Positions 12,520 to 45,001 of a stretch of DNA of 60,797 nt are shown piece by piece. The notes under the pieces were generated by a model. It was not told the DNA's origin. It made no database searches and worked only from the letters and a program-made list of their open reading frames with translations. This DNA is from Anaerolineae bacterium (GTDB lineage: Bacteria > Chloroflexota > Anaerolineae > Aggregatilineales > Phototrophicaceae), in NCBI GenBank assembly GCA_022841825.1, contig JALHQT010000011.1, positions 1 through 60,797 on the forward strand. Direction: 5' to 3'. A program made the translations under genes and the position numbers. Positions within the stretch are counted from its first letter, which is position 1. The number at the start of each line of letters is the position of its first letter.

Positions 12520-12612
12520 GCACTGGCAGGGATCGGGATATGACCGTTGATGCCTGATGCGGACGCGCGTGATTGAAGTAACGAACGTACGCCGCGACCT
12601 TGACCCGCAGAT

Positions 12613-12689
12613 GGCTTAGCTATCCAGGCATTCTCGACGACATCCATAGCGCGTTTCTCAAGCACCGCATTGCTCACATTGCGAGCTAG
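12613..12689 (+). pseudogene. 3' remnant of a second DeoR-family regulator gene
   Basis: From 12630 the plus strand reads ILDDIHSAFLKHRIAHIAS and a TAG stop. The intact DeoR-family gene at 29553-30323 ends IPDDIRSAFLKHQVDVHIAS. Nucleotide identity is high over this stretch and weak similarity continues leftwards to the IS remnant junction. Only the last 20-25 codons survive. The relic ends at the end of the leftward sugar operon. Confidence 0.65.
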
Positions 12690-13657
12690 CCTTCCGACAA
12701 CGGCTTCATGAACTGAAAGACCCTATCGCCAAGGCGTGGGAGCCACTCGTGTCCGAAATCGGGATACACCGCCAGCGACTTCGCTGATGTGATCTTGTTG
12801 TAGGCGGCGAACTGCGTCGAGGGTGGGCAGATAGTGTCCATCAGCCCAACACCCATCAGGACTTCCGCACGGATGCGCGGCGCGAGATGCTGCACGTCGA
12901 TGTAGCCCAGCTTTCGGAATATCTCGCCTTCTCTCTGGTGCAGTGGGTCATGATGACGGAAGTAGGTCTTGAGTTCTTCGTAGGCATCTTTCGCCTGATC
13001 CATCTCCCACACCCGCTGATAGTCGCACAGGAACGGGAAGGATGGCGCGGCACGTCGAATACGCGGCTCCAGCGCGGCGCATGCCAGGGTCAGTCCGCCA
13101 CCCTGGCTGCCGCCCGTCACGCCGACGCGCGTCTCATCGACTTCGGGCATTACCATCAAAATGCGAGCAAGTTGTGCCGTATCCAGGAAAATATGCCTGA
13201 ACAGTAGGTTTTCAGGCGGACCGTCCAAGCCGCGAATGATCTGCCCGCTGTGGGTCGTCCCCTTGTGCCCACCGACATCTTCCGAGCGCCCGCCTTGCCC
13301 GCGACAGTCCATTGCCGCGACAACGAACCCTTGCGCGGGGAATGCGAGCAGCTCGACCCAATCTGGCGATGCACCCGTATAGCCGTGAAAGATCAGTATG
13401 GCAGGATGCTTTGTCGCCTTCTGCCTGGGTCGCACGAATTTGGCATGGATGCGCGCGCCACCGACACCCGTGAAATACAGATGGAAGCAGTCAGCGAAAC
13501 TGCATGTGAAGTCTGCCGGAATCAGCTCAAGCTGATCGTCGAGCGCACGCATCTCAGCAAGCGCGCTGTCCCAGTACTGGTCAAAGTCGTCAGGCTTGGG
13601 GTTGGTGCCCTGGTACGTCTGCAATTGGTCAAATGGCATATCGAACAGGAGAGGCAT
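12686..13657 (-). CDS. CE7-type acetyl esterase (acetyl xylan esterase / cephalosporin-C deacetylase family)
   Basis: An alpha/beta hydrolase of 323 residues, the normal length for carbohydrate esterase family 7. Family motifs: YWDSAL near 29, CRGQGG at 118-123, nucleophile Ser184 in GGSQGG, an acidic residue near 275 (GLMDTICPP) and the catalytic His near 303 (FGHEWLPR). It removes acetyl groups from oligosaccharides; there is no signal peptide, so it probably acts on imported sugars. It is the last gene of the leftward sugar operon, 67 bases after the six-hairpin glycosidase. Confidence 0.9.
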   Translation of the reverse strand: MPLLFDMPFDQLQTYQGTNPKPDDFDQYWDSALAEMRALDDQLELIPADFTCSFADCFHLYFTGVGGARIHAKFVRPRQKATKHPAILIFHGYTGASPDWVELLAFPAQGFVVAAMDCRGQGGRSEDVGGHKGTTHSGQIIRGLDGPPENLLFRHIFLDTAQLARILMVMPEVDETRVGVTGGSQGGGLTLACAALEPRIRRAAPSFPFLCDYQRVWEMDQAKDAYEELKTYFRHHDPLHQREGEIFRKLGYIDVQHLAPRIRAEVLMGVGLMDTICPPSTQFAAYNKITSAKSLAVYPDFGHEWLPRLGDRVFQFMKPLSEG

Positions 13658-13724
13658 GATGATCTCCGGGAGTTAGACGCAAGGCAAGCAATGCTGCAAA
13701 TTGTAACGCTTCCGCATAGGATGA

Positions 13725-15965
13725 TTAGTGCAGAAGCCGGATTGTCTGCTGCGCAACGAACGGCAGCTCTATCTTTGTAGTCGCTGCGGTTTCAGCCCTG
13801 TCCTCAAGTATCACGCGCGTGAAGCCCTCAGGACGATACAGCAGAATGCGTTTCGGCTGCTGGCTGCGCGTCGTATCAAATGTCAGATGCAGTGCCCCAT
13901 CGCCAGCCGCGTCCAACGACAGATCGAGCGTCACCGCGCCGTAGCGCGTCGGCGTCGCCTCCAGGCGTATGCTCGCGTTCGGCTGGAGCCATTCAGGTGC
14001 CACCCCCATCAGCAAGTCCAAGCCCTGCGAATGCTCGAACACAAGCAGGCTGCGCGCCAGGCGGATGAACTCGGCAGACGCCCAGTTGTGCGGCATATCG
14101 CCGACGAGCTGCTCATATGTCGCGCTACGCAGGCTCTGCTCCTCTCGCCAGACGCGCGTTGGACTGGCATGATTGGCGAAGTCATAAAGATAGTCAATCG
14201 CCTTGTCCGCGCGCCCTGCGTACAACCAAACATGCCCGTTAAAGCCCGCCGAGTAGTTCCAGAGCGCGTTGTACGGAATCCAACCGGTGTTGGCTGGCAC
14301 ACCCTCTTCCTCGTCGATCAGCTCGAGCAGATGGCAGAAGTTCTGCACGAGTGGATCATCGGGCGCGAAGACCTCGCCAGGGTAGATGGCATGTGCTAGC
14401 GCCCAGGTCGCCGTCCCAGGATTCATCCGATAGTACGGGCTGACCTCGCCCTCGTAATCGGGGATCTGCACATGTTCGCTGCTCGCGCCCGGCATACAGA
14501 TCGGCAGATACGGCGTGCCATCGGGCATCGTCCGCACGTCGCGCGCCGCCTTTTCGCGGAAGACCGACAGCAAATCTTCGTACTCAAACGTGAAGCGCTC
14601 AACATCGGCAGTGTAGCCGAGCTTCTTCGCCGCCTCGACCGCCTTCTTCAAGCCCGCCAGCGTCCAGAGGGCGGTGGTGTATTCGGGGCGATTGCCACCC
14701 ATGCCGCCATCGGCAAACGTCGCGGGCATCAGATTGTACTCCGCCGCGCCTTCACCCCGCTTTTTCGACTCTTCACGCAACCAGCGGATATAGCTCACGC
14801 CGTTCTGGATGACGCTCCACATCGACGCCAGCCGCTCCCAATCGTCGTTCAGCTCGCACTGGCGAATGAGCGTCGCGATCGAGATGCCCGTCTCTTTCGG
14901 ATGAAAGTCGAGCTGCATGATCGCACCGCTCGGCTGGACACGGCGCAGCAGCGCATTGATCCCCTGCTCACCCGCGCTGGCGTGCCCCAGGTAGCGCGCT
15001 GCTTCCAGGATGAAGTAGCCATCGACCACCCATAAGCCACGATAGCTGGTCGGTCCAACCTGGAATTCCGGCAGCCCGTCCTTGATCTCACGTGCTTGCA
15101 GGATGTTGCGTGCGCAGGCGTCGATCATGTCCATGATGCCCGTGTCGGGGATGTGCCAGTCGAGCGGTTTGGTCGGATATGTGTCCCAGAAGCGCCGTTC
15201 TGCTTCCAGCGCCGCCTGCGCCCATGTCAGATCGCAGCCCTCGACATCAGCATGATTGACCGGAAAGATGAAGGCTCCGTGTACAGGGGTGTTTGCTGTC
15301 ACCGTCAGGATGGGCGTGCGCATTCGTGCGACAGGACCGAAGTGCTGCGCCTGCGCCATTTGCAGCGGGTAGGGCGCGGAGACATAGGCAAGGCGTCCCT
15401 CGGAGGAAGCAGAGTCGGAGTATTTCGCCTGATGCGCCGGGACCAGGAACAGCGATGGGATGTGCTTCCAGTGCTGCGCATCGACCATGTAGATGGTTGG
15501 CGACTGCTCGCTGCTGAAAATCTCATTTGGATCGATCTCGGTTTCCGGTACTATGAAGACCTTGCCGAGTGCTTGACCATCGACCCAGACCGCCGTATCG
15601 ACCGTATCATAGCCCGGCGCACATTCGACCGTCCACAACACAATATCGGTGCGTTTGCCCTCATGTTCATGACCGAAGGCGAGCAGCCGGAGCAGCGCGT
15701 GTGGGTACTCAATCGTCGTCTCGACAAAGGGGTGTTTCGCCGTCGTGGTGGACTGTGTGATGCCTGTTAACCGCTTTGGGCTTTGCAAGCCAAAGCTGAA
15801 GACCTTGTTAAACCAGTAGACGCCCTCCGCCGGGATCGAATTGACGTAGTCATAGAGCAGCGCGCCTTCTTCGCTCACCAACGTCTTGTGCGGGTCATCG
15901 GGATGCCCGATGCACGTCCAGGTCACACTCGATGCATATTGATGCGTCACTTGTCGTGTGGTCAT
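13725..15965 (-). CDS. Six-hairpin glycosidase family protein
   Basis: A 746-residue protein. It has an N-terminal beta-rich region to about 230 and then an (alpha/alpha)6-barrel-like region with GLWVVDGYFILEAARYLG, LIRQCELNDDWERLASMW, NTGWIPYNALWNYSAGFNGH and WASAEFIRLARSLL, followed by a small C-terminal beta domain. This organisation is typical of clan GH-L/GH-G-like enzymes, but no family was identified with certainty. There is no signal peptide. The start lies three bases after the kinase stop codon, indicating translational coupling within the operon. Catalytic residues are not assigned. Confidence 0.7.
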   Translation of the reverse strand: MTTRQVTHQYASSVTWTCIGHPDDPHKTLVSEEGALLYDYVNSIPAEGVYWFNKVFSFGLQSPKRLTGITQSTTTAKHPFVETTIEYPHALLRLLAFGHEHEGKRTDIVLWTVECAPGYDTVDTAVWVDGQALGKVFIVPETEIDPNEIFSSEQSPTIYMVDAQHWKHIPSLFLVPAHQAKYSDSASSEGRLAYVSAPYPLQMAQAQHFGPVARMRTPILTVTANTPVHGAFIFPVNHADVEGCDLTWAQAALEAERRFWDTYPTKPLDWHIPDTGIMDMIDACARNILQAREIKDGLPEFQVGPTSYRGLWVVDGYFILEAARYLGHASAGEQGINALLRRVQPSGAIMQLDFHPKETGISIATLIRQCELNDDWERLASMWSVIQNGVSYIRWLREESKKRGEGAAEYNLMPATFADGGMGGNRPEYTTALWTLAGLKKAVEAAKKLGYTADVERFTFEYEDLLSVFREKAARDVRTMPDGTPYLPICMPGASSEHVQIPDYEGEVSPYYRMNPGTATWALAHAIYPGEVFAPDDPLVQNFCHLLELIDEEEGVPANTGWIPYNALWNYSAGFNGHVWLYAGRADKAIDYLYDFANHASPTRVWREEQSLRSATYEQLVGDMPHNWASAEFIRLARSLLVFEHSQGLDLLMGVAPEWLQPNASIRLEATPTRYGAVTLDLSLDAAGDGALHLTFDTTRSQQPKRILLYRPEGFTRVILEDRAETAATTKIELPFVAQQTIRLLH

Positions 15966-15968
15966 CTC

Positions 15969-16949
15969 TTATTGTCTTTGCTGTAGGCTGGTCTTGAGAG
16001 TTGTGAGAAACTGGTCGTCCAGCGGAGCGCACATCTGTCGCGCCAGCAACGCCGCGCCGACAGCCGCCGGGAACCGAGGTTGCACGATGCGACAGGCGGG
16101 CAGGCGACGAAGGACCGCTTGCGCCAGCGGTGTGGTGATGATGCTGCCCGCCTGCATCATCCCGCCTACGCAGACGAGACTCGGTGCATCACCCAGCGTG
16201 AGGCGCTGGGCGACGGCGACGACACAGCGTGCCACCTCGTCCATACCGCTGGCGATGATCGCCTGCGCAGCCCGGTCGTGCTGTTCGGCGGCAGCGACGA
16301 CGACGCGACTGAGTGCCGCAATTTCACTCACAGTGATCTTGGCGGAATAGAGACGCTGCATGATCTGCGGGATGCCCTCGATCCCCAACGCCTGAAGCAC
16401 TGCATCATGCATGAGGGTCGCTTCGCCGCGCCCATCGTAGGCAGCAGCAGCGGCTTTGATCGCCTGAATGCCCAGCCAGTAGCCACCGCCCTCATCCGCG
16501 ATCAGGTGTCCCCAACCGCCGCACATCCAGCGCTCGCCCTGGGCGTTCATGCCAAAGCACGACGTGCCGGTGCCGATGATCTGCACAATGCCCGGTTCGC
16601 CCGCCAGCCCACCCGCCAGCGCGATCCGGCAGTCGTGATCGACACCGATTGTATCCTCCGGGGCGAGCCGAAGATGCCGAGCGATTTCGCGTACGACATC
16701 GCGGTCGCTCTCTGAGACCACGCCCGCGATGCCGAGGAACGCTGCTGCGAAATATGAGTCGTCAACGCCCGCCTCGGCTGCCGCCAGGTGTACCGCCGCG
16801 CCGATACTCCGCCGCGCCAGCTCCACGCTGGTGTTACCGAAGTTCGACGCGCCCGCCACGCCGATGCCACACACGTTTCCGACATCATTGAGGATGACTG
16901 CCTGAGTCTTCGTGCCGCCGCCATCGACGCCAAGATAGTGGGCGCTCAT
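15969..16949 (-). CDS. BadF/BadG-type sugar kinase, N-acetylglucosamine kinase-like
   Basis: A 326-residue ASKHA-fold kinase. The phosphate-1 loop is LGVDGGGTKTQAVI (6-19), the phosphate-2 loop is IIGTGTSCFG near 115, and GGWGHLIADEGGGYWLG is the family signature. This matches BadF/BadG/BcrA/BcrD ATPases that include N-acetylglucosamine and glucosamine kinases. It probably phosphorylates a hexosamine or another monosaccharide released by the locus. ATG at 16949 overlaps the isomerase stop by four bases and is where family similarity begins; a longer open frame upstream overlaps that gene and is discarded. Confidence 0.87.
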   Translation of the reverse strand: MSAHYLGVDGGGTKTQAVILNDVGNVCGIGVAGASNFGNTSVELARRSIGAAVHLAAAEAGVDDSYFAAAFLGIAGVVSESDRDVVREIARHLRLAPEDTIGVDHDCRIALAGGLAGEPGIVQIIGTGTSCFGMNAQGERWMCGGWGHLIADEGGGYWLGIQAIKAAAAAYDGRGEATLMHDAVLQALGIEGIPQIMQRLYSAKITVSEIAALSRVVVAAAEQHDRAAQAIIASGMDEVARCVVAVAQRLTLGDAPSLVCVGGMMQAGSIITTPLAQAVLRRLPACRIVQPRFPAAVGAALLARQMCAPLDDQFLTTLKTSLQQRQ

Positions 16950-18727
16950 GCGTGCCCATTCTTCATGAAACCCACGACGACCATCGCGAGTTCGTCCGTG
17001 TCGTTGACAAGGCGGAAGCGCCCAGCCGCCGCCGGAACAACAAACGTCTCGGCATAGCTGAAGCGCACCTGCCTTCTCTGCGGGGTGTCCAGCAGGATCG
17101 TCGTCCCTTCGACCAGGCTCATCACCTGTGGAGAGCCGTCCGTCGTCACCTCGACCGCGCAACCGGGATCGATCTCATAGCGCCGCACATCGTAGAAATG
17201 AACGGGGTGAGTCGGCACATGGATCAGTCGCCAGCCATCGCCGCTCGTCTGTAGGTACGGCTTGGAGATCAGCTCCTGCTCGACGCGCGCGCCCTGCCGC
17301 TCGAAGTGCAGATTCTCGAAGGCGCGGTCGATATTAAGCGGGCGCGGCTTGCCGTCGAGATCCAGGCGCAGCCAATCGTACATTTTGAACGTGAAGATGT
17401 AGGGTGTCGCGCTGATCTCCAGCACAAGGTTGTTCTTCCCTGAGCAGTGGATCGTCCCGTTTGGTATCAGGAACAGGTCGTGCTTGCGCGCCGGGAAGGC
17501 GCGCACAAACTGCTCGACATCGACCGCGCTCGCCTCCGCGAAGCTGCGCACCAGCGCCGTGCGGAACGCCTGCGGATCGATGCCGTCCTGGAAACCGAGG
17601 TAGACCGTCGCATCATCCCCGCAGTCCAAGATGTAGTAGGTCTCATCCTGGGTGAAACTCTCGCCAAAGTGGTGTCTGGCAAATTCCGGGCTGGGGTGGC
17701 ACTGCACCGAGAGATTGCCGCCATCGAACGTATCGAGGAAGTCGAAGCGGATTGGGAATTCATAGCCGAAGCGTTCCGCCGAGTGTCCCAGCACCGCCTG
17801 ATGATCGTGATACATCAGGAAGTCGAATGACAGCTCTAACAGCACGCCGTCGCTCTCCAGCATCAAGCCGTTCTCAGGCACGATCAGCTCGAACGACCAG
17901 GCATAATTCGGTGCGTCCTGCGGAAGCTGGGGGATGCGCTGCTTGATCCACTGCCCACCCCATGCACCCGGCTCGAACCAGGGGCGCACACGAAAGTAGC
18001 TGCGGCTCATCCGCACGAGTGCATCGCGCATGTACTCTCCGGTCGTAAACACCGGGGTGTCAGGTCGCTGACCATCGACGATGAGATCGATGCGCGGTGT
18101 CAGCGCCGCCTTGTGCGCGTTAAGTGCGACCCAATCGACGAAGTAGAAGCGCTTGTACATCACCTTTGGATCGGTGGGTTCGCGCGCCCCCAGATTGACG
18201 ACACTGCCCGCGCGCGAACGAAACTGGATTTCGTTCTTTGGCACATCGACGTAGACCAGGAATGCATCATCCCAGCCCACCAGCGCCGCCCCGCAGCCGT
18301 ACAGGATCGAGATGTCGGCGCTGTCATCGGGCTGAAGCGCTGTCCGCGCGTTCATGTCGAAGAAGTTCGCCAGCGTTCCGGTGAAGCGCGTGCCAAAGAT
18401 CGGGTCAGCGCCGCCCATAAACGGCGCAATCAGTGCGTTGATCTCCGCTTCTGGCAGAAGCGCACTGCGCACATCGACCCAGGCAGCATCGACGCCCCGC
18501 GCCTTGAAAGCAGCAGTGATCTGCTCGCGCAGCAAATCCCACAGTACGCCGACATATCCGTCGATAACGACACGCTTGTGCTGGTGCAGCACGTCCGCCA
18601 GCGCCTCACTGCCGATGTCGATCTTACCATCGCCAATCGGGAAGGCGGGATAGATGTCATACTGCCCATCTGGTAGCGACGGATGATGCAGCGGTGCAAG
18701 TTCCTGCGACGTTTTGCGGAGCGCCAT
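16946..18727 (-). CDS. Class I mannose-6-phosphate isomerase-like protein with N-terminal extension
   Basis: A 593-residue protein. The C-terminal half carries the class I phosphomannose isomerase core: GGNLSVQCHPSPEFARHHFG near 335-354 (metal-binding QxH), ETYYILD, FLIPNGTIHCSG and a second cupin-like barrel. The N-terminal 200 residues are unusual: KRVVIDGYVGVLWDLLREQI (51-70) resembles the start of a P-loop kinase fold but lacks the GxxxxGK[ST] residues. The core should interconvert mannose-6-phosphate and fructose-6-phosphate. It lies five bases after the small cupin gene and overlaps the kinase gene. Confidence 0.8.
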   Translation of the reverse strand: MALRKTSQELAPLHHPSLPDGQYDIYPAFPIGDGKIDIGSEALADVLHQHKRVVIDGYVGVLWDLLREQITAAFKARGVDAAWVDVRSALLPEAEINALIAPFMGGADPIFGTRFTGTLANFFDMNARTALQPDDSADISILYGCGAALVGWDDAFLVYVDVPKNEIQFRSRAGSVVNLGAREPTDPKVMYKRFYFVDWVALNAHKAALTPRIDLIVDGQRPDTPVFTTGEYMRDALVRMSRSYFRVRPWFEPGAWGGQWIKQRIPQLPQDAPNYAWSFELIVPENGLMLESDGVLLELSFDFLMYHDHQAVLGHSAERFGYEFPIRFDFLDTFDGGNLSVQCHPSPEFARHHFGESFTQDETYYILDCGDDATVYLGFQDGIDPQAFRTALVRSFAEASAVDVEQFVRAFPARKHDLFLIPNGTIHCSGKNNLVLEISATPYIFTFKMYDWLRLDLDGKPRPLNIDRAFENLHFERQGARVEQELISKPYLQTSGDGWRLIHVPTHPVHFYDVRRYEIDPGCAVEVTTDGSPQVMSLVEGTTILLDTPQRRQVRFSYAETFVVPAAAGRFRLVNDTDELAMVVVGFMKNGHA

Positions 18728-18732
18728 GAGGC

Positions 18733-19125
18733 TTATTCCCCCTGTTCGGGGCGCTTGAAGTCATCTTCGTAGCGGGTGATGTCCGCCTGCTGCCAGTTGC
18801 CAAAGGCGACCTCCAGCACGCGCACATTAGGTCCTGTGCTGCTCAGGCGGTGTCTGGCGTTCGCCGGAATCCAGACTTTATCGCCTGCTTTCGGGTAGAA
18901 GAGGTCATCATTCACCTGCACTGCCGCGCCGTCATCGAGTACGATCCACAGTTCGGCGCGTCCGGTGTGCGATTGCAGGCTCAGACGCTGCCCCGCCGTA
19001 ACCGTCATCAGGCTGACGGTCACATCCTCGTTGAAGGCGTACTGCTCAAACGATCCCCAGGGGCGCACGACATGATCGATGTCTGGCATGGTATCTGGGA
19101 TAGGTTTGGTGACGTAGGTGGTCAT
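18733..19125 (-). CDS. Small cupin, phosphomannose-isomerase C-terminal type
   Basis: A single cupin domain of 130 residues: HVVRPWGSFEQYA, LSLQSHTGRAELWIVLDDGA, a middle PKAGDKVWIPANARHRL and a final RVLEVAFGNW. This is the pattern of the isomerase domain of type II phosphomannose isomerase/GDP-mannose pyrophosphorylase. One usual metal ligand (H-x-H) is reduced to QSH-TGRAE. ATG at 19125 is chosen because AAGGAC lies about ten bases upstream; two in-frame ATGs upstream are alternatives. It sits between two other sugar-phosphate isomerase genes, so a role in hexose-phosphate isomerisation or sensing is likely. Confidence 0.75.
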   Translation of the reverse strand: MTTYVTKPIPDTMPDIDHVVRPWGSFEQYAFNEDVTVSLMTVTAGQRLSLQSHTGRAELWIVLDDGAAVQVNDDLFYPKAGDKVWIPANARHRLSSTGPNVRVLEVAFGNWQQADITRYEDDFKRPEQGE

Positions 19126-19148
19126 CGTCGACATGTCCTTATACATAC

Positions 19149-19739
19149 TCAGCGGAGGATGGGCAGGCTGGCTAAAAAGTGCTCACGATCCAAAACGACC
19201 GGTCTACCATCCTGCACGACAACTACCTGCGCGAAGTTGCGCTCCTCCAGCGCCCCATAATCGTGCCCTGCCCGCGCCGGATAGATGCCGAGATAGGTGA
19301 GTGGCGCGTCGCCGACGTTGACGGTGCGATGCGCCGTGTGACCCGGCACATAAACGACGCTGTCGGGTAGCAGATCAACGCTGTAAGCGCGGCGTGTTTG
19401 TTCATGTTCGAGCAGCATGACGCCGCTGCCCGTGAGACCGATGTAGATCTCGGCGGCAGGTCGCCACTGGTGGAAATGCCCGCGTGTCAGAAAGTATTCC
19501 TGCCCCACGCGCCCCGGCATGATCTTGCCGATGCCATAATGCAAATCACCTTCGCCACCCGCAGGCTCGACACTGGCGACGCTGTAGACCAGCGGGTCGC
19601 CCTGCTCGAGTGCGCCCGCGTAGGCGTGGGGGTCGGCAAAAACACCGCGCAGGTGACTGAGGCGACGTTCAACAACAGCGGCATTCGGAATAGCAGCGTT
19701 TATTCTGTCGAATGAGATCAATTGCGACACATCCATCAT
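19149..19739 (-). CDS. Cupin-type glucose-6-phosphate isomerase
   Basis: A 196-residue protein with the cupin phosphoglucose isomerase signature (archaeal-type GPI): YGIGKIMPGRVGQEYFLTRG, GHFHQWRPAAEIYIGLTGSG with metal ligands His-x-His and Glu, and the later VYVPGHTAHRTVNVG. It interconverts glucose-6-phosphate and fructose-6-phosphate. ATG at 19739 is preferred since GAGG lies upstream and the longer frame runs into the operator and promoter. It is the first gene of the leftward sugar operon, downstream of a TTGACG/TATAAT promoter. Confidence 0.88.
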   Translation of the reverse strand: MMDVSQLISFDRINAAIPNAAVVERRLSHLRGVFADPHAYAGALEQGDPLVYSVASVEPAGGEGDLHYGIGKIMPGRVGQEYFLTRGHFHQWRPAAEIYIGLTGSGVMLLEHEQTRRAYSVDLLPDSVVYVPGHTAHRTVNVGDAPLTYLGIYPARAGHDYGALEERNFAQVVVVQDGRPVVLDREHFLASLPILR

Positions 19740-19760
19740 TCGTAGTGACCGCCTCGTATT

Positions 19761-19812
19761 TGTTATTTTGTGTTTATAAAACACATTATAGCGCGTAACC
19801 TTGCGGCGTCAA
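19761..19812 (-). promoter_or_regulatory. Promoter and operator of the leftward isomerase operon
   Basis: On the minus strand TTGACG (19812-19807) and TATAAT (19790-19785) are separated by 16 bases. Immediately downstream lies TGTTATTTTGTGTTTATAAA plus ACAC (19761-19784 on plus), which contains the perfect palindrome GTGTTT-ATA-AAACAC at 19770-19784. A related 24-base site overlaps the divergent promoter. Position just after the -10 suits a repressor operator. Confidence 0.7.
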
Positions 19813-20086
19813 ACAGATGCTTTGGCAGCGCGCATTGGAAGCAAGGACAAATCTTTCAGCTAGTGACCGCGTTTTTAGTGAGATCCAGGCTCACAATTCA
19901 TCTCACAAAATTTGACACCGCACTAATCCTGTGTTATTTTGCGTAAATAAAACATAAAATGACAATTAGCATGTTCGAGAATGAAGCTTTTTCATCTCCT
20001 CAACCATGGTACTGGTGCAGTCTAAATCGACTGCTGGTGCAATCGTACATACCTCTATTTGTCCTATTGGAAAGGAATGCAAAGCC
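19813..20086 (+). promoter_or_regulatory. Promoter and operator of the rightward ABC/glycosidase operon
   Basis: TTGACA at 19912-19917 and TATTTT at 19935-19940 are 17 bases apart. The -10 lies inside a site at 19932-19955 that starts TGTTATTTTG and ends ATAAAACAT, a close match to the site at 19761-19784. Bases 19813-19911 hold no gene or other clear signal, and 19956-20086 is a leader with AAAGGA at 20071-20076 before the ATG at 20087. Confidence 0.7.
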
Positions 20087-21292: not shown

Positions 21293-21340
21293 ACTGAGAT
21301 GGGCGACTCAAGCTAAGATTGAGCGCATCTGCGAAGCAGC

Positions 21341-21367
21341 GGCTTGACTTCCTAAGGAAGTCAAGCC
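21341..21367 (+). terminator. Intercistronic hairpin after the binding-protein gene
   Basis: GGCTTGACTTCC-TAA-GGAAGTCAAGCC is a perfect 12-base stem with a 3-base loop in the 130-base gap between the binding-protein and first permease genes. There is no T tract. It probably acts as an mRNA stabiliser or partial attenuator, as is common after binding-protein genes. Confidence 0.65.
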
Positions 21368-21422
21368 AATCGCACGGTTAGCAGTCCACAGATGCTTCGT
21401 TTTGATGCTTCTGGAGCATAGT

Positions 21423-24036: not shown

Positions 24037-24075
24037 ATCGCGCTTAACGTATGTTGTAGCTGGAGAACAAAGTAG

Positions 24076-25650: not shown

Positions 25651-25671
25651 GACAGTTGGAGCCGACCCGTG

Positions 25672-29480: not shown

Positions 29481-29489
29481 TGTCCAGTG

Positions 29490-29528
29490 TCAAAACATCA
29501 TCATGCTATAATGCCGGGCATCAAAACA
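29490..29528 (+). promoter_or_regulatory. Promoter and operator half-sites of the DeoR-family gene
   Basis: TCAAAACA occurs at 29490-29497 and again at 29521-29528, 31 bases apart, with TATAAT at 29507-29512 between them. The complement TGTTTTGA resembles the TGTTTTA core at the other promoters of the locus. A weak internal promoter under autoregulation is suggested. No good -35 was identified. Confidence 0.5.
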
Positions 29529-29552
29529 CCACGCTACTCAGGTCAACATCTC

Positions 29553-30323: not shown

Positions 30324-30329
30324 AGCGCG

Positions 30330-32135: not shown

Positions 32136-32147
32136 AGGTTTGCCTTC

Positions 32148-36205: not shown

Positions 36206-39162
36206 ACTTGTTCTCCCGTTTCGATAACTTCAACGCCATCCGGTACGCACCAAGTCATGTTCAGCTTGCCATCGGCGTCCTTTGCCCAGCGTACAAAAAT
36301 GTCGCCATGCACCGTCGGCACAGTGCCTTCTGCCCAATCCAAACCAAATGCCTGCGGCTGAATGCACACCTTCGCCCAGCCTGGCTCAAGCGGCATAACA
36401 CCAAGCACCTGAGACGATAGAAAGTAAGCGGGCGCAGCCGACCAGCCGTGACACAGGCTGCGGCTCCAATGGATGGGACGACTATCGAGGCTCTCTGCTG
36501 GGAATGTCTCCCAGAAGGTGGTTGCCCCTTTGTCGAGCATTCGCTTCCACTGTTCACGCAAAATCTTCATCGCAACGGTGCCATGATCGTCTTGAAACAG
36601 CGTTTCGAGTGTGAAGAAGAGGAACCAGGGGCTGCCTACGGGGACAATCTCATTCGGGTTCATCAAGTGCGTTTCGTCAGGAGTACTGCCGCGAAACTTT
36701 CCGTCCTGTGCCCTCAGCACATACTTCAGTGTCGCCGCATGCCGCGCATCTGGCACACACTGGCAGAGCAGCATAAGCGTGTTGGTGCATTCACTGATAC
36801 GTTGTTTTCTGTGGAAAGCTTCAAAGCTGATGGGAATGACCATGCGCCGCTCCATCTGCCGTAAATAGTCGGCATAAGCGTCAGCATCGCGGAGCGTATC
36901 GACATATCCCTGATGGATCTCTGACCATGCATATCGATTGAGCGCCGTGCGCAGTCGATCTGCGAGTGTCCGAAAGTGATCGGACTCATCATGGTGTGAG
37001 AGGATGGTCGCCATCTCTGCCGCGAAATCGAGTGCGCGCGCCATCATCGCGCTATTGGCGACGACTTCGCCTTCAGCCTCCAGATCCATCGCCGCCCAAT
37101 CGACAAGATTCCAGACATCTCGAATTGCGAACATATCGCGATGCGAGAGAAACTTTTCACAGCGTTGCAGGCATAGCTTCACTGCCGCATAATGCCGGGT
37201 GAGCAGTGAAAGATCGCCAGTGTACTGGTATTGCTCCCAAACCATCCATACCCAAAGGAATGTCCACATCGGGATTTCATTAAACCAGCCGCTGACGACA
37301 TGCGAAGTGACCAAATGTTCACGCTGAATGTAGGCTGGCTTGATTGTGTTTATTGCATCGGACAACGAGAGCACTGCCAGATCGATGCAGTGGGTCGTGA
37401 GTGTGTGTGATCCGAATGTAACGTTGTTAACGAGTGCCGTATTCCGCGCGTCGCCTACCCAGTAAGCTTGCTCGTAGGCAGGGCAGTCTGTGTAGGTGTC
37501 CAACATGCAGAGCTGAACTGTGTAGGCGGCTGTTTCCCAGATTTGATTGAGCGTGCTGTCTGAGCAGCGAAATGCACCGCGTTGTTCAATCGGATACGTG
37601 CTCATGCGAGTTCGCACACCATGAATGAGAATGGATGCTTGAATGTTGCGCAGCGTCAGAGAGATGTAGCGAAACCCGCGACGGCGATGCGAAATAAAGA
37701 CCTGGTGTCCCTCTCTGCAGATATAGCGAAAACTGTTGCGCAGGTTTGTCGTCCAGAAGATGCCCATTTCGTCAATGCCCTCAAAGCAGTTGGCATCAAT
37801 GATCGTTCCTGCGTTGGCTGTCACTTCCAACTCAACATAGCCCATCACTTCGCGCCCAAAGTCAATTACCAGATGGATGTCGCCGTCCGGTTGGTGGAAT
37901 ATCGTTGTCGCTTGCGGGCTGTTATGGAGACAGGCTTCCGGTTGTGCGACAACCCGCCTCACGCCGGGAAGAGAAGCCCTAGGGGTTGCAAGCGCAATTT
38001 CTGCTGCGCAGAACCCCCCGTCAATGGCGAAGAATCGCTGCGAAGCGGTCAACATAAAAATGTCTTCGAGGTTGTCCTGCGCCATAATGGCTCGCAGAGG
38101 GACTTGCCTTCGCAAAGCGCCAAGATCCGTAGCCGTCCACCATCGTTCAAGTTCACCATTGAGTTCATTCAGAGTGCCTGCAAACACCCATGCTGCGCCC
38201 GCAATATAGCGGCTCGCATCAAAACGCAATTCTGCATCTGTGTCAAAGAAAACTGCCGGGAATTCCGTGCTGCGCAGCATTACAAGATTCGATCCGGGAT
38301 GCAGGGCGGCGACGCAACCGAGCGCACTGTCCTCAAAGAATTGATCATTGATGCGTACTGGGATCGGCTCATAGGTGGGAAAAGATCTTATGCTCACATC
38401 GCACTCGGTTTCGGCGAATATCTCGCTGATAATCAGCCAACCTCGCTCGCCTTCCGGCGAACTTTTCATTCCCTGCCGCATCGTGTCTGCGAGATGTCGC
38501 ACGTCGAAACTCCAGCGATAGCCTTCGGGAATGCGCGCCAACTCCAGCGCCTTGATGGCAGTGGGGGTAATAGGATTGTCTGTCAGGAGCGGAATCGGTC
38601 GCGGCTCAACAACATTCCAGGGGTGCAGGGCAATTGCCGCCCGCTCCCAGAGCGAGTCATCGAATTGAGGATGCTGCCAGCCTACAGGTTCCAGGCGAGC
38701 ATCGACCTGCTCTTCGTACTCCATCTGAAATGAGATGCGGGGTGTCTTGGACTTTAGTGACTTGCTGCGAAGGGTGCGCCAGCCATCATCCGTGAGAATT
38801 GGCGTACTCTCCCCATGCCCATTCGTAAGCGACATCTGGCACAGAAGACCTGGCGTCCCACGCATATAAGAGAGAGTTTGGTCGCCGAGATAATTGACGA
38901 GGACGGCTATGCAATTACGCTTAGCTGCACACAAAAGGTGTGTGACAGAGTAGCTGTCATAGTAGGCATGGAACGGATAACCACGCGCGGGTCCTCGCCC
39001 CACAAATGTGTCATTGATCCACAACTCATAGGTCGTGTCGGCGGCAATCCGCATGGCATCGGATACGAAGCTAGAAGAAACTTCGAAAGTTTGTCGAAAA
39101 TAGCGCCACACATTGGTCTCGTTGGGTTCATCCTGCCCCCAGATTGGCTGTGTCAGCCACAT
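36202..39162 (-). CDS. GH78-type alpha-L-rhamnosidase-like protein
   Basis: A 986-residue protein. N-terminal beta-sandwich domains include RIAADTTYELWINDTFVGRG, a usual feature of bacterial rhamnosidases. The six-hairpin catalytic domain contains the family segment DTYTDCPAYEQAYWVGDARN near 550-570 (family form DCPxREQxxWxGDA), then VDWAAMDLEAEG and a C-terminal beta domain with LGVMPLEPGWAKVCIQPQ. There is no signal peptide, so intracellular oligosaccharides are the substrate. It heads the second leftward operon and has a long unused antisense frame inside it. Confidence 0.85.
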   Translation of the reverse strand: MWLTQPIWGQDEPNETNVWRYFRQTFEVSSSFVSDAMRIAADTTYELWINDTFVGRGPARGYPFHAYYDSYSVTHLLCAAKRNCIAVLVNYLGDQTLSYMRGTPGLLCQMSLTNGHGESTPILTDDGWRTLRSKSLKSKTPRISFQMEYEEQVDARLEPVGWQHPQFDDSLWERAAIALHPWNVVEPRPIPLLTDNPITPTAIKALELARIPEGYRWSFDVRHLADTMRQGMKSSPEGERGWLIISEIFAETECDVSIRSFPTYEPIPVRINDQFFEDSALGCVAALHPGSNLVMLRSTEFPAVFFDTDAELRFDASRYIAGAAWVFAGTLNELNGELERWWTATDLGALRRQVPLRAIMAQDNLEDIFMLTASQRFFAIDGGFCAAEIALATPRASLPGVRRVVAQPEACLHNSPQATTIFHQPDGDIHLVIDFGREVMGYVELEVTANAGTIIDANCFEGIDEMGIFWTTNLRNSFRYICREGHQVFISHRRRGFRYISLTLRNIQASILIHGVRTRMSTYPIEQRGAFRCSDSTLNQIWETAAYTVQLCMLDTYTDCPAYEQAYWVGDARNTALVNNVTFGSHTLTTHCIDLAVLSLSDAINTIKPAYIQREHLVTSHVVSGWFNEIPMWTFLWVWMVWEQYQYTGDLSLLTRHYAAVKLCLQRCEKFLSHRDMFAIRDVWNLVDWAAMDLEAEGEVVANSAMMARALDFAAEMATILSHHDESDHFRTLADRLRTALNRYAWSEIHQGYVDTLRDADAYADYLRQMERRMVIPISFEAFHRKQRISECTNTLMLLCQCVPDARHAATLKYVLRAQDGKFRGSTPDETHLMNPNEIVPVGSPWFLFFTLETLFQDDHGTVAMKILREQWKRMLDKGATTFWETFPAESLDSRPIHWSRSLCHGWSAAPAYFLSSQVLGVMPLEPGWAKVCIQPQAFGLDWAEGTVPTVHGDIFVRWAKDADGKLNMTWCVPDGVEVIETGEQV

Positions 39163-39397
39163 GATGTTCGGCTCCTCAGCAGATTTAGATGAAACTCATT
39201 CTTGCGATGTTTGGCATTGTGCGTTTCTGAGTTATAATGTTTTAATCAAAAGTAACATAACAGCAGATTGATTTCAACCATCCGCTCGTCTACAGCGCCG
39301 CCAGCGTCGAACCTGCGGGTGGTTCATTCTCTTCAGTGAGGGTTTCTCTACGTAAATCTGTTCCTTAGAGCCATTGACGGTAGTAGGAGTATTGGCG
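39163..39397 (+). promoter_or_regulatory. Divergent promoter region with a third operator
   Basis: TTGGCA at 39211-39216 and TATAAT at 39233-39238, 16 bases apart, form a rightward promoter for the GH38 gene. It is followed directly by TGTTTTAATCAAAAGTAACA plus TAACA (39238-39262), placed like the site downstream of the -10 at 19785. A leftward promoter for the GH78 operon is expected here but none stands out. AGGAG at 39385-39389 marks the GH38 start. Confidence 0.6.
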
Positions 39398-42300
39398 TTG
39401 AACCATCGCTATCGTTGGACACCGCAGAAGATCGCGCGGCGTCTCAGGCTGATTGAACCGCTGATCTATCGTCGCAAAGTGCTGCTGCCCATCTTTCGCT
39501 TCAAGGCGCTTGCCAGTGCCCAAGATATGCCTCCGCCTGACGCGGACGATAGTGACTGGGAAATCATCCCCTACAATAGCTACTGGGGGGCATGGAATGT
39601 CAATTTTGTGATGCGCTCCAGCTTCACAATCCCACCCGATTGGGATGCGGCGACTCCGATAGCGCTTCATCTGAGGATGGGTGATGCGGTCGAGTTCTGT
39701 CATCCTGAAACGCTTGTCTATGTGGATGGCGTCCCGCTTGCTGCAAGCGACCGTGCGCATGAAGAAATCATTCTGCCGGATCATTTGCGCGATAAGAACA
39801 AGCATCGCCTTATGCTTCATGGTTGGACGGGCATCGGCTACGGGCGTGAGCGGCTGACCGACGCTAATTTGTTTATGCGCGAATGTTTCCTCGTCCAGAT
39901 CGATGTGCCAACTCGCGCATTCTTCACGTTGGCGAGTCTGGCGTTGGATGTCGCCGAACAGCTTGACTCAAATGACCGGACACAGTCATTGCTTTACAAC
40001 GCATTGGATACGGCTTTCCTTGCAATGGATACGCGCGACCCCCTCGGTACGCCTGCCTTCTATCACAGCGTGCCGCAGGCGCTAGAGATGCTTCAAGCTG
40101 GAATCACGGCGGCTGGTAGCCCACTTGATATCAAGATGCTTGCCGTTGGCCATGCGCATATCGACACCGCATGGTTGTGGAACCTAGATCAGACAGTGCG
40201 CAAAGCCGGACGCACCTTCAGCACGGTTTTACATCTGATGAACCAACAGCCGGAATTCAAGTTCTCACAAAGCCAGCCGCAGCTATATCAATACATGGAA
40301 CGTCATTACCCCGAACTCTTTGCGCAGATAAAAGCGCGAGTGCAGGAGGGGAGATGGGAAGTGATGGGCGGAACGTGGGTCGAACCGGATTGTAACGCCA
40401 TTGGTGCCGAGTCACTGGCGCGTCAGTTTCTGCTGGGCAGATCGTATTTTCGTGAGCATTTTGCCGACGCCGAAACGCCCGTCCTCTGGCTGCCGGATAC
40501 CTTCGGTTATAGCTGGGCGCTGCCACAGCTTATCCGTCAGGCAGGTTTGAAGTACTTCGTCACCCACAAAATGAGCTGGAATCAGTACAACCAGATGCCA
40601 CACCAATGCTTCTTGTGGCAGGGTTTGGATGGAACACGAGTCCTGACCTATTTTCTGACCACTCCTGCCCCGATGCCCGGGCTTCCACATGCGACAACCT
40701 ATAACGGCATCGTCAACGCGAGCGAGGTCTTTGGCACATGGCGCGGATTTCGCCAGAAAGAGACGCATGACGAAGTGATGATGCCTTTTGGCGAAGGCGA
40801 TGGCGGCGGCGGACCCAATGGGCAAATGCTAGACAACATTACGTATTTGGCGGACTTTCCTGGTGCGCCGCGCCTTCGCTTTGGCAAGGTGCGTGACTTC
40901 CTTGAGCGTCTGGAGCAATCCTCGCCGGACACTTTTCCCGTATGGAATGGCGAGTTTTATCTCGAGTATCATCGTGGCACCTATACCAGCCAGGCACGAA
41001 CGAAGCGCAACAACCGAAAGTGTGAAGTTCTGCTGCATGATGCAGAGTTCCTGGCAGCATGGGCAGCGCTGGCGGCGGGGCATGAATATCCGCACGACGA
41101 TCTGACGCATGCATGGCAGTTGCTGTGCCTCAACCAGTTTCACGACATCCTGCCCGGCTCATCCATTCATCAGGTTTATGTCGATGCAGAGCGCGACTAC
41201 AGTGCCATTCGTCAGATTGGTGAAAAGGTGCGCGACGCAGCCCTGAATGCTCTGGGAATGACTTTGCCCGCAGCGACGACGATTGCAGTCATCAATACAA
41301 CTTCGTTCGATGGGCGACACACCGGCTTGTTCGCCGAACGCCTTCCACAGGATATACATCTTGAAGACATTGATGGCAACCTCCTGGTAACGCAGGCTGT
41401 CGAGGGTGGAACGCTCGTCGAAATCCCACAAGCTGCGGCGTACAGCATGGTCGGATTACGAGAAAGAACTGGGCAGCTTCCCGAATCGGACACGAGCGAT
41501 ATTGCTGTATGGCAGGAGAGCACCACGACGATTCTCGAAAATGCGCTCTTGCGCGTCGAAATCAATCACATGGGCGAGATTCAACGTCTTTATGACAATG
41601 CAATGATGCGCGAAGTCCTGCCGTTTGGCGAAGTCGCAAATCGCCTGCTGGCATTTGAGGATCGCCCATTGAGCTTCGATGCATGGGACTTGGACATCTT
41701 CTACGAAGACCGTATGGAACATGTGCTTGGGCTAGAAAGCCTGGCGATCATTGAGGCAGGACCTTTGCGTGTGGGGGTCGAGATCAAGCGGCGCTATCGG
41801 AACAGTACGCTTTCACAGCGGATATACCTCTACAGGAATAGCAGGCGACTGGACTTTGATACCTGGGTAGACTGGCACGAGCATCACATCCTGCTCAAAG
41901 TCGCGTTCCCAACCAATATTATGAGTCCGGTGGCGACTTTCGACGTGCAATGGGGCAATGTTCAGCGTCCGACGCATCGCAACACACCCTGGGATATGGC
42001 GCGATTTGAAACTTGCACTCATAAGTGGGTTGACTTGAGTGAAGGCAACTATGGAGTTGCACTCCTCAATGACTGCAAATACGGATACGATGTGCATCAC
42101 AATACCTTGCGCCTGTCGCTCATCAAGAGTGCAACCGATCCGGATCCAGAAGCCGACCAGGGCGAGCATTGCTTCGTCTACAGCCTCCTGCCGCATCCCG
42201 GCGACTGGCGCGGAGAGGTCGTCCGGAGTGCGTATGATCTCAATATTCCATTGTTGGTAAGGCGGATCAGAGGCGCGGCTGCCATAAACCCAGAGCCACT

Positions 42301-42559
42301 TGTTTCGCTGAATGTTGACTATGTCGTAATTGAGACGATCAAGCTGGCAGAAGACGGAAATGGACTGATCGTACGTGTATATGAGAACCAACGTAATCGC
42401 GGTACAGTCATGTTGAAAGCTGGTTTCGAACTTGCCTCAGCATACCTCTGCAATCTGTTGGAAGACACCGAACACGCCCTGGACATAACGGATAACGCCG
42501 TTCAACTGCAAGTGACACCCTACCAGATCAGCACCCTGCGATTGGTGCCGCTTCCCTGA
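39398..42559 (+). CDS. GH38 alpha-mannosidase
   Basis: A protein of about 1053 residues. The GH38 catalytic domain has the zinc-site GHAHIDTAWLWNLDQTVRK, the segment EVMGGTWVEPDCNAIGAESL, nucleophile Asp367 in LWLPDTFGYSW, and HKMSWNQYNQMPHQCFLWQG, with the C-terminal beta domains of the family (FDVQWGNVQRPTHRNTPWD). TTG at 39398 is preferred as start since AGGAG is eight bases upstream; TTG at 39374 is the alternative. It trims terminal alpha-mannose in the cytoplasm and is followed after 34 bases by an MFS transporter gene. Confidence 0.95.
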   Translation: MNHRYRWTPQKIARRLRLIEPLIYRRKVLLPIFRFKALASAQDMPPPDADDSDWEIIPYNSYWGAWNVNFVMRSSFTIPPDWDAATPIALHLRMGDAVEFCHPETLVYVDGVPLAASDRAHEEIILPDHLRDKNKHRLMLHGWTGIGYGRERLTDANLFMRECFLVQIDVPTRAFFTLASLALDVAEQLDSNDRTQSLLYNALDTAFLAMDTRDPLGTPAFYHSVPQALEMLQAGITAAGSPLDIKMLAVGHAHIDTAWLWNLDQTVRKAGRTFSTVLHLMNQQPEFKFSQSQPQLYQYMERHYPELFAQIKARVQEGRWEVMGGTWVEPDCNAIGAESLARQFLLGRSYFREHFADAETPVLWLPDTFGYSWALPQLIRQAGLKYFVTHKMSWNQYNQMPHQCFLWQGLDGTRVLTYFLTTPAPMPGLPHATTYNGIVNASEVFGTWRGFRQKETHDEVMMPFGEGDGGGGPNGQMLDNITYLADFPGAPRLRFGKVRDFLERLEQSSPDTFPVWNGEFYLEYHRGTYTSQARTKRNNRKCEVLLHDAEFLAAWAALAAGHEYPHDDLTHAWQLLCLNQFHDILPGSSIHQVYVDAERDYSAIRQIGEKVRDAALNALGMTLPAATTIAVINTTSFDGRHTGLFAERLPQDIHLEDIDGNLLVTQAVEGGTLVEIPQAAAYSMVGLRERTGQLPESDTSDIAVWQESTTTILENALLRVEINHMGEIQRLYDNAMMREVLPFGEVANRLLAFEDRPLSFDAWDLDIFYEDRMEHVLGLESLAIIEAGPLRVGVEIKRRYRNSTLSQRIYLYRNSRRLDFDTWVDWHEHHILLKVAFPTNIMSPVATFDVQWGNVQRPTHRNTPWDMARFETCTHKWVDLSEGNYGVALLNDCKYGYDVHHNTLRLSLIKSATDPDPEADQGEHCFVYSLLPHPGDWRGEVVRSAYDLNIPLLVRRIRGAAAINPEPLVSLNVDYVVIETIKLAEDGNGLIVRVYENQRNRGTVMLKAGFELASAYLCNLLEDTEHALDITDNAVQLQVTPYQISTLRLVPLP

Positions 42560-42593
42560 GTCGCAGCTCTCAATTCATAAAAGGCGTTTTAGC

Positions 42594-43793
42594 ATGACCA
42601 CTGCATCTGTTGTTCGACAGGTTAATCCAGCGCCTCTGTATCTTGTGATTATCGCTTATGTCGGCTACATCCTGTTAGGTATACCGATTGGCTTGCGAGG
42701 GGTTGCCTGGGAGTCTGGTACGCGGGCAGATTTTGGGCAACCCGTGAGCGCGCTGGGCGCGCTCATCCTCGCCAATACCATCAGCTACTTTGTCAGCAGC
42801 GCGCTTGCCAGTCGCTTGATCCAACGTTTTGGGTTAGGCAATGCGCTGCTCGTGAGCTTTCTGCTGACGGGCTTGGCTTTGCTCGGTTATGCGCTCAGTC
42901 CTGCCTGGGCGCTGATAATTCTGCTGGGGGTCGTGGTTGGCTTTGGGCTTGGGTTCGTCGATGCCGCAATGAACGTCTATTTTGCGGCACATCATGGTCC
43001 TCGGCTCATGAATTGGTTGCATGCCTGCTTTGGGATTGGTTCTGCAATTGCGCCGTTACTGCTCAATTTTATCTTGGCACAAGGGGGTGTCTGGCGCACA
43101 TCCTATACGGTCGTTGCTCTACTCTACTTTGTGCTGCTTCTGGTCATAATCGTGACGCGCACTCAATGGACGGTGAACCGAGCTGGACTGAGCGATGAAA
43201 GCAAACCAGCGAGCAGTCGCGCCACATTGACATTGCTTATTGTCTGGGTTGGGATCTTCACATTCTTTGTCTACGGCGGTGTCGAGATTGTACCGAGTGA
43301 CTGGGGAGCGCGCTTGTTCACAGCGGCGCGGGGTATCGAACAGGTGGAAGCCAATAACAGAATCAGCCTCTACTGGTTCTTCTTCACCATCGGGCGCATT
43401 GTCTTCGGCTTCATCGTACCATACTTCAAGGCGGCAACCCTGATGCGCACATGCATGATCGGCATCATCATCGGCGCAGCACTGCTGGCGCTGCCACCGT
43501 CGGACTCCGCCAATACACTGGGTGTCATCGGGCTGCTGATTGGCGCTTTCGCAATGTCGCCGCTGTTCGCCCTGCTGGTGACCACCACGCAGGAGAAGCT
43601 CGGTCCGACACATGCGCCGCACGCCATCAGCTTCCAGGTCGCAGCGGCGAGCGCGGGGATCGGCATTCTCCCGGCAGTAACGGGTGTAATCGCCGAGGGA
43701 ACTCCCTCAGCAGTACCCATCGTTTGGATACTGCTGAGTGTTCTGCTGTTCGTGCTCTTTGAGGTGAGTCAGCGCGTGAAATTCAATGGGTAG
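42594..43793 (+). CDS. MFS transporter
   Basis: A 399-residue protein with about 12 hydrophobic segments in two halves and a hydrophilic middle loop. The segments YVGYILLGIPIGLRGVAW, GFGLGFVDAAMNVYFAAHHG and WLHACFGIGSAIAPLLLNF resemble the fucose/glucose-galactose permease (FucP-like) subgroup of the family. With the alpha-mannosidase it makes a two-gene operon. It probably takes up a monosaccharide or exports a product; direction cannot be told from sequence. Confidence 0.87.
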   Translation: MTTASVVRQVNPAPLYLVIIAYVGYILLGIPIGLRGVAWESGTRADFGQPVSALGALILANTISYFVSSALASRLIQRFGLGNALLVSFLLTGLALLGYALSPAWALIILLGVVVGFGLGFVDAAMNVYFAAHHGPRLMNWLHACFGIGSAIAPLLLNFILAQGGVWRTSYTVVALLYFVLLLVIIVTRTQWTVNRAGLSDESKPASSRATLTLLIVWVGIFTFFVYGGVEIVPSDWGARLFTAARGIEQVEANNRISLYWFFFTIGRIVFGFIVPYFKAATLMRTCMIGIIIGAALLALPPSDSANTLGVIGLLIGAFAMSPLFALLVTTTQEKLGPTHAPHAISFQVAAASAGIGILPAVTGVIAEGTPSAVPIVWILLSVLLFVLFEVSQRVKFNG

Positions 43794-43871
43794 TGGGAGA
43801 GATGCTCTTTACGACCTAGTAGGGGCTTTGGGGGTGGTGTAGGGTGGGAAAACCGTATCCGCACGGGAAAG

Positions 43872-44966: not shown

Positions 44967-45001
44967 GAAGTGCAGTGACCCATTTGAGCGATGAGAGGGG
45001 C

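Follow-up and report, generated by a model that had tools for sequence, protein, structure and literature searches.

A candidate alpha-mannoside locus of mosaic build with a tandem metallo-beta-lactamase-fold protein in an Anaerolineae bacterium

Contig JALHQT010000011.1 of an Anaerolineae bacterium (assembly GCA_022841825.1) carries 19 sugar-related genes in two divergent operon pairs between positions 12686 and 43793. The locus raises the question of which glycan it serves and whether its four operons form one system. The window is the entire contig (C11; 60,797 bp) of a 5.9-Mb genome assembled in 21 contigs. A reading of this DNA made earlier without database searches (the sequence-only reading) had described a glycan-utilisation locus for a sulfated, acetylated heteroglycan. 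With a probability of roughly 0.6, the locus is a DeoR-controlled, importer-based mosaic island for decorated, alpha-mannose-containing oligosaccharides, in which a protein with two metallo-beta-lactamase-fold (MBL) domains would carry out one step.

Gene content and layout

Open reading frame (ORF) calling with Pfam and NCBIfam scans gave 19 genes in four operons; the gene list, outer coordinates and two divergent pairs of the sequence-only reading held up. Operon A (- strand, 19784-12686) diverged from operon B (+ strand, 20006-30323), and operon C (- strand, 39162-30330) from operon D (+ strand, 39374-43793), with starts at 19784/20006 and 39162/39374. The locus ended at 12686 with the 3' end of the acetyl xylan esterase gene and at 43793 with that of the major facilitator superfamily (MFS) gene. 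The genes are listed below; GH, PMI and GPI stand for glycoside hydrolase family, mannose-6-phosphate isomerase and glucose-6-phosphate isomerase.

12686-13657, -, A1, acetyl xylan esterase AXE1 (Pfam, 432.7 bits)
13725-15965, -, A2, 746-aa predicted six-hairpin glycosidase, no Pfam hit, predicted fold nearest GH78
15969-17162, -, A3, BadF/BadG-type sugar kinase (Pfam, 150.8 bits); true start probably near 16949
16946-18727, -, A4, 593 aa, class I PMI in its second half (PDB match; NCBIfam below cut-off)
18733-19146, -, A5, PMI cupin (Pfam, 68.5 bits)
19149-19784, -, A6, cupin-type GPI (Pfam, 95.3 bits); true start probably inside
20006-21292, +, B1, MalE-like solute-binding protein with leader (Pfam, NCBIfam, hydropathy)
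21402-23036, +, B2, MalF-like permease (Pfam)
22978-24036, +, B3, MalG-like permease (Pfam, NCBIfam)
24076-25650, +, B4, GH4, MelA-type alpha-galactosidase subfamily by model (Pfam, NCBIfam)
25669-27387, +, B5, MGH1-like/GH63-type glycosidase (Pfam; partial matches to 2z07 TTHA0978 and YgjK)
27327-29480, +, B6, DUF6259 protein, presumed glycosidase (Pfam, 57.1 bits)
29487-30323, +, B7, DeoR-family regulator (Pfam, NCBIfam)
30330-32135, -, C4, tandem MBL protein with C-terminal beta-rich domain (Pfam MBL, 83.8 bits; predicted structure)
32148-33608, -, C3, type I sulfatase with CSPFR motif (Pfam, 180.8 bits); true start probably 33488, overlapping the C2 stop
33485-36205, -, C2, 906-aa GH63/MGH1-like glycosidase (Pfam)
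36202-39162, -, C1, GH78 alpha-L-rhamnosidase-family protein (four GH78 Pfam domains)
39374-42559, +, D1, GH38 alpha-mannosidase (four GH38 Pfam domains; nearest solved relatives Ams1)
42594-43793, +, D2, MFS transporter (Pfam)

Seventeen of the 19 proteins had a Pfam family, and two (A4 and A2) had no Pfam hit. The solute-binding protein, the MalF- and MalG-like permeases, both GH4 domains, the DeoR regulator and the MFS transporter also exceeded their Pfam cut-offs, and the MGH1-like model matched twice (198.7 and 106 bits). Carbohydrate-active enzymes, a sugar transporter and a regulator thus co-occurred in compact operons. No Pfam family of a susC/susD pair was found in the 39 window proteins scanned.

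Mosaic construction and possible common regulation

The four operons were not found together elsewhere in the genomes searched. Among 60 other relatives, none held A4, B6 and C3 together (E <= 1e-40, up to seven candidates scored per genome). Taken singly, A4 was found in G203, G083 and G191; B6 in G249, G223, G235 and, at 28% identity, G236; and the sulfatase in G233 (64%) and, at 35-41%, in G228, G191, G229 and G214. In G191, A4 and the sulfatase (38%) were on different contigs. Across 199 genomes of the class, matches numbered 17 for A2, 12 for B6, 44 for C1 and 51 for C2, with the own genome counted and most matches weak. Long-stretch matches of at least 48% identity were confined to G023 for A2 and were found in four genomes for B6, nine for C2 and none for C1. 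The stretches fetched around B6, C1 and C2 relatives in the class held no other island gene beyond distant ATP-binding cassette (ABC) permease hits. GH38 genes were present in 63 of the 199 genomes (E <= 1e-30, up to three candidates scored per genome), and D1 had relatives of 60-65% identity within its own genus and family (G083, G146).

Genes of operon A were found as a separate unit. In the same-genus genome G203 (L231) a DeoR gene was divergent from GPI-PMI-ManA-BadF genes (46-72% identity), and in G023, of the same class (L021), from BadF-GPI-PMI-ManA followed by a GH2 gene and an A2 homologue (46-70%; A2 51%). The DeoR gene adjoined the first isomerase-operon gene in both genomes; in the window operon B occupies that place and the DeoR gene lies at its far end. 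The locus looks like a mosaic: its modules are found separately in other genomes and here lie together between two IS481-like elements.

Operator-like palindromes were observed in both divergent spacers:

19762-19785, palindrome 1, A/B spacer
19933-19956, palindrome 2, A/B spacer
39231-39254, palindrome 3, C/D spacer

The consensus, GTTATTTTGYGTNWATAAAACAYA, had two copies in the A/B spacer. It was built from these two sites alone and then used to score the C/D site, which reached 17 of 23. Outside the two spacers, no position in the window scored above 15; a further hit at 17, at 19769, was palindrome 1 read on the other strand. When the C/D spacer was dinucleotide-shuffled 2000 times, five shuffles reached 17. 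The single complete DeoR gene perhaps controls all four operons through these putative operators, a proposal that is supported but unproven. The sequence-only reading had named a lack of joint conservation of the operons in related genomes as a refuting result, and this lack was observed in the genomes searched; the palindromes in both spacers favour one regulon. Several further results weigh against one regulon. Six of 60 whole-window shuffles reached at least 17 somewhere, and the third operator is imperfect; because such shuffles reach 17 too, the operator argument rests on the place of the site in the C/D spacer. When the A/B spacer was compared without gaps with the C/D spacer, the score did not stand out from chance (17 versus 15-17 in 12 shuffles), and comparisons with the G023 spacer did not stand out either. 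When the consensus was scanned in 10 loci from other genomes and the own genome, best scores were 14-16 with no good site, and conservation of the operator is unsupported.

A relic of A6, on the strand opposite to A6, lies just downstream of palindrome 3, and operons C and D may have acquired their operator by copying of the A6 start region. This relic and the other features at the module and locus borders were as follows:

11313-12519, +, left IS481-like insertion sequence (IS) element; transposase ORF 11386-12477; 12-bp perfect inverted ends at 11312-11323 and 12509-12520
12524-12616, -, probable C-terminal fragment of an IS481 transposase (relic; 31 aa at 42%)
12627-12664, +, relic of the 3' end of a second DeoR gene (92% identical over 38 bp to 30258-30295)
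39282-39322, +, relic of A6 (90% over 41 bp to 19555-19595)
43838-45070, -, right IS481-like element; transposase ORF 43872-44966; ends match at 21 of 24 positions

The transposase genes bracketing the locus (11386-12477, +; 43872-44966, -) were absent from the sequence-only reading. IS481 was the best NCBIfam model for both transposases, yet both missed its cut-off (115.4 and 124.6 versus 224 bits), and the elements are named IS481-like for that reason. The transposase-tail and DeoR relics (12524-12686) are directly beside the A1 esterase gene and suggest an earlier duplication cut by an IS. A composite transposon was rejected: the flanking copies were not near-identical, and no target-site duplication was seen by eye. 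The two elements differed in sequence (69% identity over 386 bp) and in their ends, so joint transposition of the island is unsupported, a point that counts against mobility as one unit.

The strongest alternative is that two or more unrelated loci, A and B for one sugar and C and D for another, came to lie side by side by chance. We consider this possible but improbable. It fits the separate occurrence of A, B, C and D genes in other genomes, the relics at module borders and the imperfect C/D operator, but it is opposed by the operator-like palindromes in both divergent spacers, by the window having only one complete DeoR gene, and by the packing of the four operons, with no other gene, between the two IS-like elements.

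The surroundings bear on how the mosaic island came to its place. On the right, two genes (h5 and h1, a pair made up of the response-regulator fusion at 51832-53490 and the histidine-kinase gene at 45319-46734) are separated by three further genes in the window and were adjacent in 9 of 11 places in relatives (L202-L212). Longer stretches around this pair (L213-L219) held no island gene beyond 26-30% matches to ABC permeases. This makes an insertion of the island beside older genes likely. An exact empty insertion site was not found among the relatives' stretches fetched, and the left neighbour gene (10359-11147) had no match in 30 relatives.

Other observations at the borders were made. A 70-bp direct repeat (97%) was present at 11243-11312, where it runs right up to the left end of the left element, and again at 60500-60569, near the contig end and beside an apparent transposase fragment (by eye). 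At 45002-45143 a tandem 71-bp repeat (80% identical) doubled the outer end of the right element. The product of 51832-53490 is a response regulator fused to a thioredoxin-reductase-like flavoprotein, and a large serine recombinase with Resolvase and Recombinase domains was encoded at 53964-55961, near the right side of the island. At 3150-9366, behind a two-component system, lay a MacAB-like efflux operon encoding two MacB permeases and a pair of HlyD-type adaptors.

Predicted enzymes and probable substrate

Import followed by intracellular breakdown, as the sequence-only reading had proposed for a glycan-utilisation locus, is supported by the gene families and by hydrolases without leaders. 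A simple hydropathy scan covering residues 1-60 gave a maximum of 3.01 for the binding protein, whereas ten hydrolases (the esterase, the sulfatase, the MBL protein and seven GH-type proteins) reached 0.23-1.81; the MBL maximum, at residues 40-54, was inside the predicted MBL fold. This agrees with the earlier remark that none of the hydrolases has a signal peptide. No ABC ATPase was found among the 19 genes. UgpC/MsmK-type ATPases were encoded elsewhere in the genome, one of them above its model cut-off.

Mannose was the best-supported sugar, on the grounds of D1 and operon A. D1 contained the N, middle, C and C2 domains of GH38, all above the Pfam cut-offs, and its closest PDB relative was Ams1 (6lz1, E 4e-143, residues 109-1055). 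Ams1-type alpha-mannosidases resemble cytosolic Man2C1. The second half of A4 matched the mannose-6-phosphate isomerase 1qwr (E 1.8e-15). With a kinase, two PMI-type proteins and a cupin GPI, operon A would pass mannose into glycolysis. The kinase A3 scored 128.8 bits against the NagK model (cut-off 370), and the hexosamine kinase proposed earlier is correspondingly weak.

C3 combined a C-x-P-x-R formylglycine motif (CSPFR) with a Pfam Sulfatase domain. Together with the AXE1 esterase it implies sulfate and acetyl groups on the substrate, and the decorations foreseen by the sequence-only reading are supported to the extent that the gene set implies them. The genome held 21 PF03781 matches as sulfatase maturase candidates, a domain that is not maturase-specific, and three PF00884 sulfatase matches only; because of the latter, it does not look like that of a sulfated-polysaccharide specialist. 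AXE1-family esterases (35-36% to A1) adjoined a D1-type GH38 in two of 11 D1-type loci from other genomes (G163 and G127, of the same family or order; L194:9616-13707 and L195:9321-13729).

The remaining hydrolases were assigned to families. C1 contained the N, concanavalin-like, six-hairpin and C domains of GH78, all above cut-off, which bore out the earlier GH78-like call and places C1 in the rhamnosidase family by sequence. A2 was predicted to fold as a beta-sandwich with an (alpha/alpha)6 barrel (mean predicted local distance difference test, pLDDT, 72). Its nearest solved folds were GH78 rhamnosidases (8iwf, Z 26.7, root-mean-square deviation 4.0, 418 aligned residues, 14% identity), followed from Z 25 by other six-hairpin families. 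A2 had no Pfam hit to GH78 models at E 0.01, and the likeness is one of fold only. B4 exceeded the NCBIfam cut-off for MelA-type alpha-galactosidases (556.7 versus 486 bits), and its translation contained a CHG motif, which we take to be of the glucuronidase type; glucuronidase is a candidate activity alongside the alpha-galactosidase subfamily assignment. A sequence search found no PDB relative of B6.

The best-supported substrate is a decorated, alpha-mannose-containing oligosaccharide from a polymer cut elsewhere. A MalEFG-like importer, its ATPase encoded elsewhere, would take up the oligosaccharides. The esterase and the sulfatase would strip acetyl and sulfate groups, and GH38, GH4, GH78, the GH63-like enzymes, DUF6259 and the six-hairpin A2 would remove sugars in the cytoplasm. 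Mannose would reach fructose-6- and glucose-6-phosphate through the kinase, PMI-type and GPI proteins, and the tandem MBL protein would perform a further metal-dependent hydrolysis accompanying GH38-type catabolism. The modules for these steps, whose order we infer, would have been gathered between the two IS481-like elements and would share one operator type.

Against this substrate stand paralogues of B2 and B3 (43-46%) in a maltose-type locus of the same genome (L196) with two GH13 genes; the importer may accordingly take alpha-glucosides, although L196 also holds a GH38 gene. All enzyme specificities, moreover, are predicted from family membership, and the sulfatase and the esterase are assigned to family level. 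The GH38 gene of L196 (G000:C4:255000-274900) is a second one in this genome (51%); besides the maltose-type importer and the pair of GH13 genes, an esterase gene and a GH127-like gene lie beside it.

A target such as xanthan-like or fungal or diatom glucuronomannan side chains (mannose, glucuronic acid, acetyl, sulfate), with the GH4 enzyme as glucuronidase, is unlikely, somewhat more so than the chance neighbourhood of two loci. GH38, the mannose isomerases, the esterase, the sulfatase and the CHG motif of GH4, if of the glucuronidase type, would suit such side chains, but the GH4 model prefers alpha-galactosidase, and no unsaturated-glucuronyl hydrolase or lyase was found among the 19 genes. 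The ulvan or rhamnan sulfate resemblance drawn by the sequence-only reading, with sulfatase, GH78 and glucuronidase degrading a sulfated algal rhamnan, was rejected as very improbable: the four-domain GH78, the Cys-type sulfatase and the GH78-like fold of A2 would suit it, but no lyase, GH88, GH105 or rhamnose isomerase, kinase or aldolase was found among the 19 genes (the rest of the genome being unsearched for these; the two Pfam-less proteins are isomerase-like, A4, and of six-hairpin fold, A2), the isomerases are of the mannose- and glucose-phosphate type, GH4 falls in the alpha-galactosidase model and the genome has three PF00884 matches.

The tandem MBL family and related systems

In the predicted structure of C4 (mean pLDDT 79.7), a pair of MBL domains was joined by a beta-rich part at the C-terminus. 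Foldseek listed 50 matches with query template-modelling scores of 0.24-0.30, corresponding to about one domain; those listed were single-domain matches only, which is no proof that a tandem match is absent. C4 reached the cut-off of none of the 25 NCBIfam models listed (of 30).

Relatives were collected by scanning a genome-contig collection with a nine-sequence alignment, and the best 80 of 299 confirmed relatives were kept. All 80 loci entered the counts; they are not independent (several are from Nonomuraea, Microbacterium, Paenibacillus and Cellulomonas), and several are on short contigs. In 81 sequences, the metal ligands of domain 2 (HxHxDH, H, D, H) were complete in all. The ligands of domain 1 (HxHxD, H, D, H) were present in 80-81, and the last His of the motif was replaced by Gln (77) or Val (2, including the window protein). 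In two of three more distant relatives (L047, L048, L051; 26-29% identity), QHRRPN stands where the metal motif of domain 1 would be, which suggests that one active site was lost.

A GH38 gene was found in the fetched flank of 54 of the 80 loci: 11 of 17 in Chloroflexota, 14 of 20 in Bacillota, 29 of 42 in Actinomycetota and 0 of 1 in Pseudomonadota, with phyla assigned by hand from titles and recall. The nearest GH38 shared the strand of the MBL gene in 51 of 54 and, in 16, followed directly downstream of it at no more than 155 bp. The sequence-only reading had regarded the tandem MBL protein as an unusual companion of the other genes, a view that these flanks do not bear out. Loci fetched through other genes of the window, all from its class and with flanks not all 10 kb on each side, served for comparison and held GH38 in 1 of 16: 0 of 9 for C1/C2 (L094, L095, L097-L102, L104), 0 of 4 for B6 (L086-L089, contigs of 4.7-12.4 kb) and 1 of 3 for A2 (G023 L021/L022, G137 L024, G036 L025; the positive is L025). 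Among MBL relatives in the class, G127, G031 and G135 (48-58%) had GH38 in the fetched stretch and G131 (37%, L103) had none.

Other families recurred in the 80 loci: MalF-like permeases in 40, MalG-like permeases in 40 and DeoR regulators in 20. FGGY and ROK kinases, class II aldolases, GH2, GH35-type and NAGidase enzymes and Gfo/Idh/MocA oxidoreductases were also recurring neighbours. Neighbours were clustered by simple ORF picking, which is poor at high GC (the MBL gene itself was recovered in 52 of 80), and clusters were named from one or two representatives. A 611-aa protein without a Pfam hit (L106:3501-5336 and relatives) clustered in 28 of the 80 loci. It matched only GH31 alpha-galactosidases, weakly (E 1.8e-4), and looks like a glycosidase. 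A common origin with B6 (DUF6259) was not supported (profile comparison probability 0.5%).

The link between the MBL family and GH38 has exceptions. GH38 was lacking in 26 of the 80 loci, and where present was mostly only 27-33% identical to D1. Sulfatase (3 of 80), GH78 (2 of 80) and GH4 (2 of 80) were rare, and in the window the MBL and GH38 genes are in different, divergent operons. Judged by its gene neighbourhoods, the tandem MBL protein takes part in GH38-linked sugar catabolism regularly but not always. Hydrolysis of a lactone, an ester, a sulfate or a phosphodiester would fit its superfamily. At evenly balanced odds, the protein would found an undescribed family of enzymes with two metal sites, dedicated to a GH38-linked step of alpha-mannoside use in Chloroflexota, Bacillota and Actinomycetota, e.g., the opening of a lactone, an ester or a phosphodiester which stands in the way of mannose release or comes after it. 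Among the titles listed in open-licence PMC literature, none concerned a tandem MBL linked to GH38, a DUF6259 function or this locus, and no literature on the GH4 motif was found among them.

The superfamily (B1/B3 lactamases, glyoxalase II, lactonases) shares with C4 the fold (Z ~20 to single MBL domains) and the metal ligands; C4 differs in that a single chain carries a pair of MBL domains together with a beta-rich C-terminal one. D1 is likewise close to Ams1-type alpha-mannosidases over the aligned residues, but is bacterial and has an MFS transporter gene next to it. With importer-based carbohydrate-utilisation loci the island shares a binding protein, two MalFG-type permeases, leaderless hydrolases, a regulator and sugar-phosphate enzymes, and it differs from them in its many hydrolase families, the IS481-like brackets, the relic gene ends at module borders and the tandem MBL protein. 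Bacterial N-glycan or alpha-mannoside GH38 loci, e.g., of pneumococci, combine ABC import with a cytoplasmic GH38, as proposed here. Unlike these, the island has no endo-glycosidase, GH125 or GH92 among its 19 genes and adds a sulfatase, GH78, GH4 and the MBL protein. The kind of locus, importer-based glycan utilisation, is already known; what sets this one apart is mainly the tandem MBL family and the mosaic build.

The vague heteroglycan guess becomes a testable mannoside locus, which also offers an example of a possible regulon put together from modules found separately in other genomes. A2 would add one further glycosidase-like protein without a Pfam family. The MBL protein, conserved with two sites and linked to GH38 in three phyla, would have a reaction that could be read by assay.

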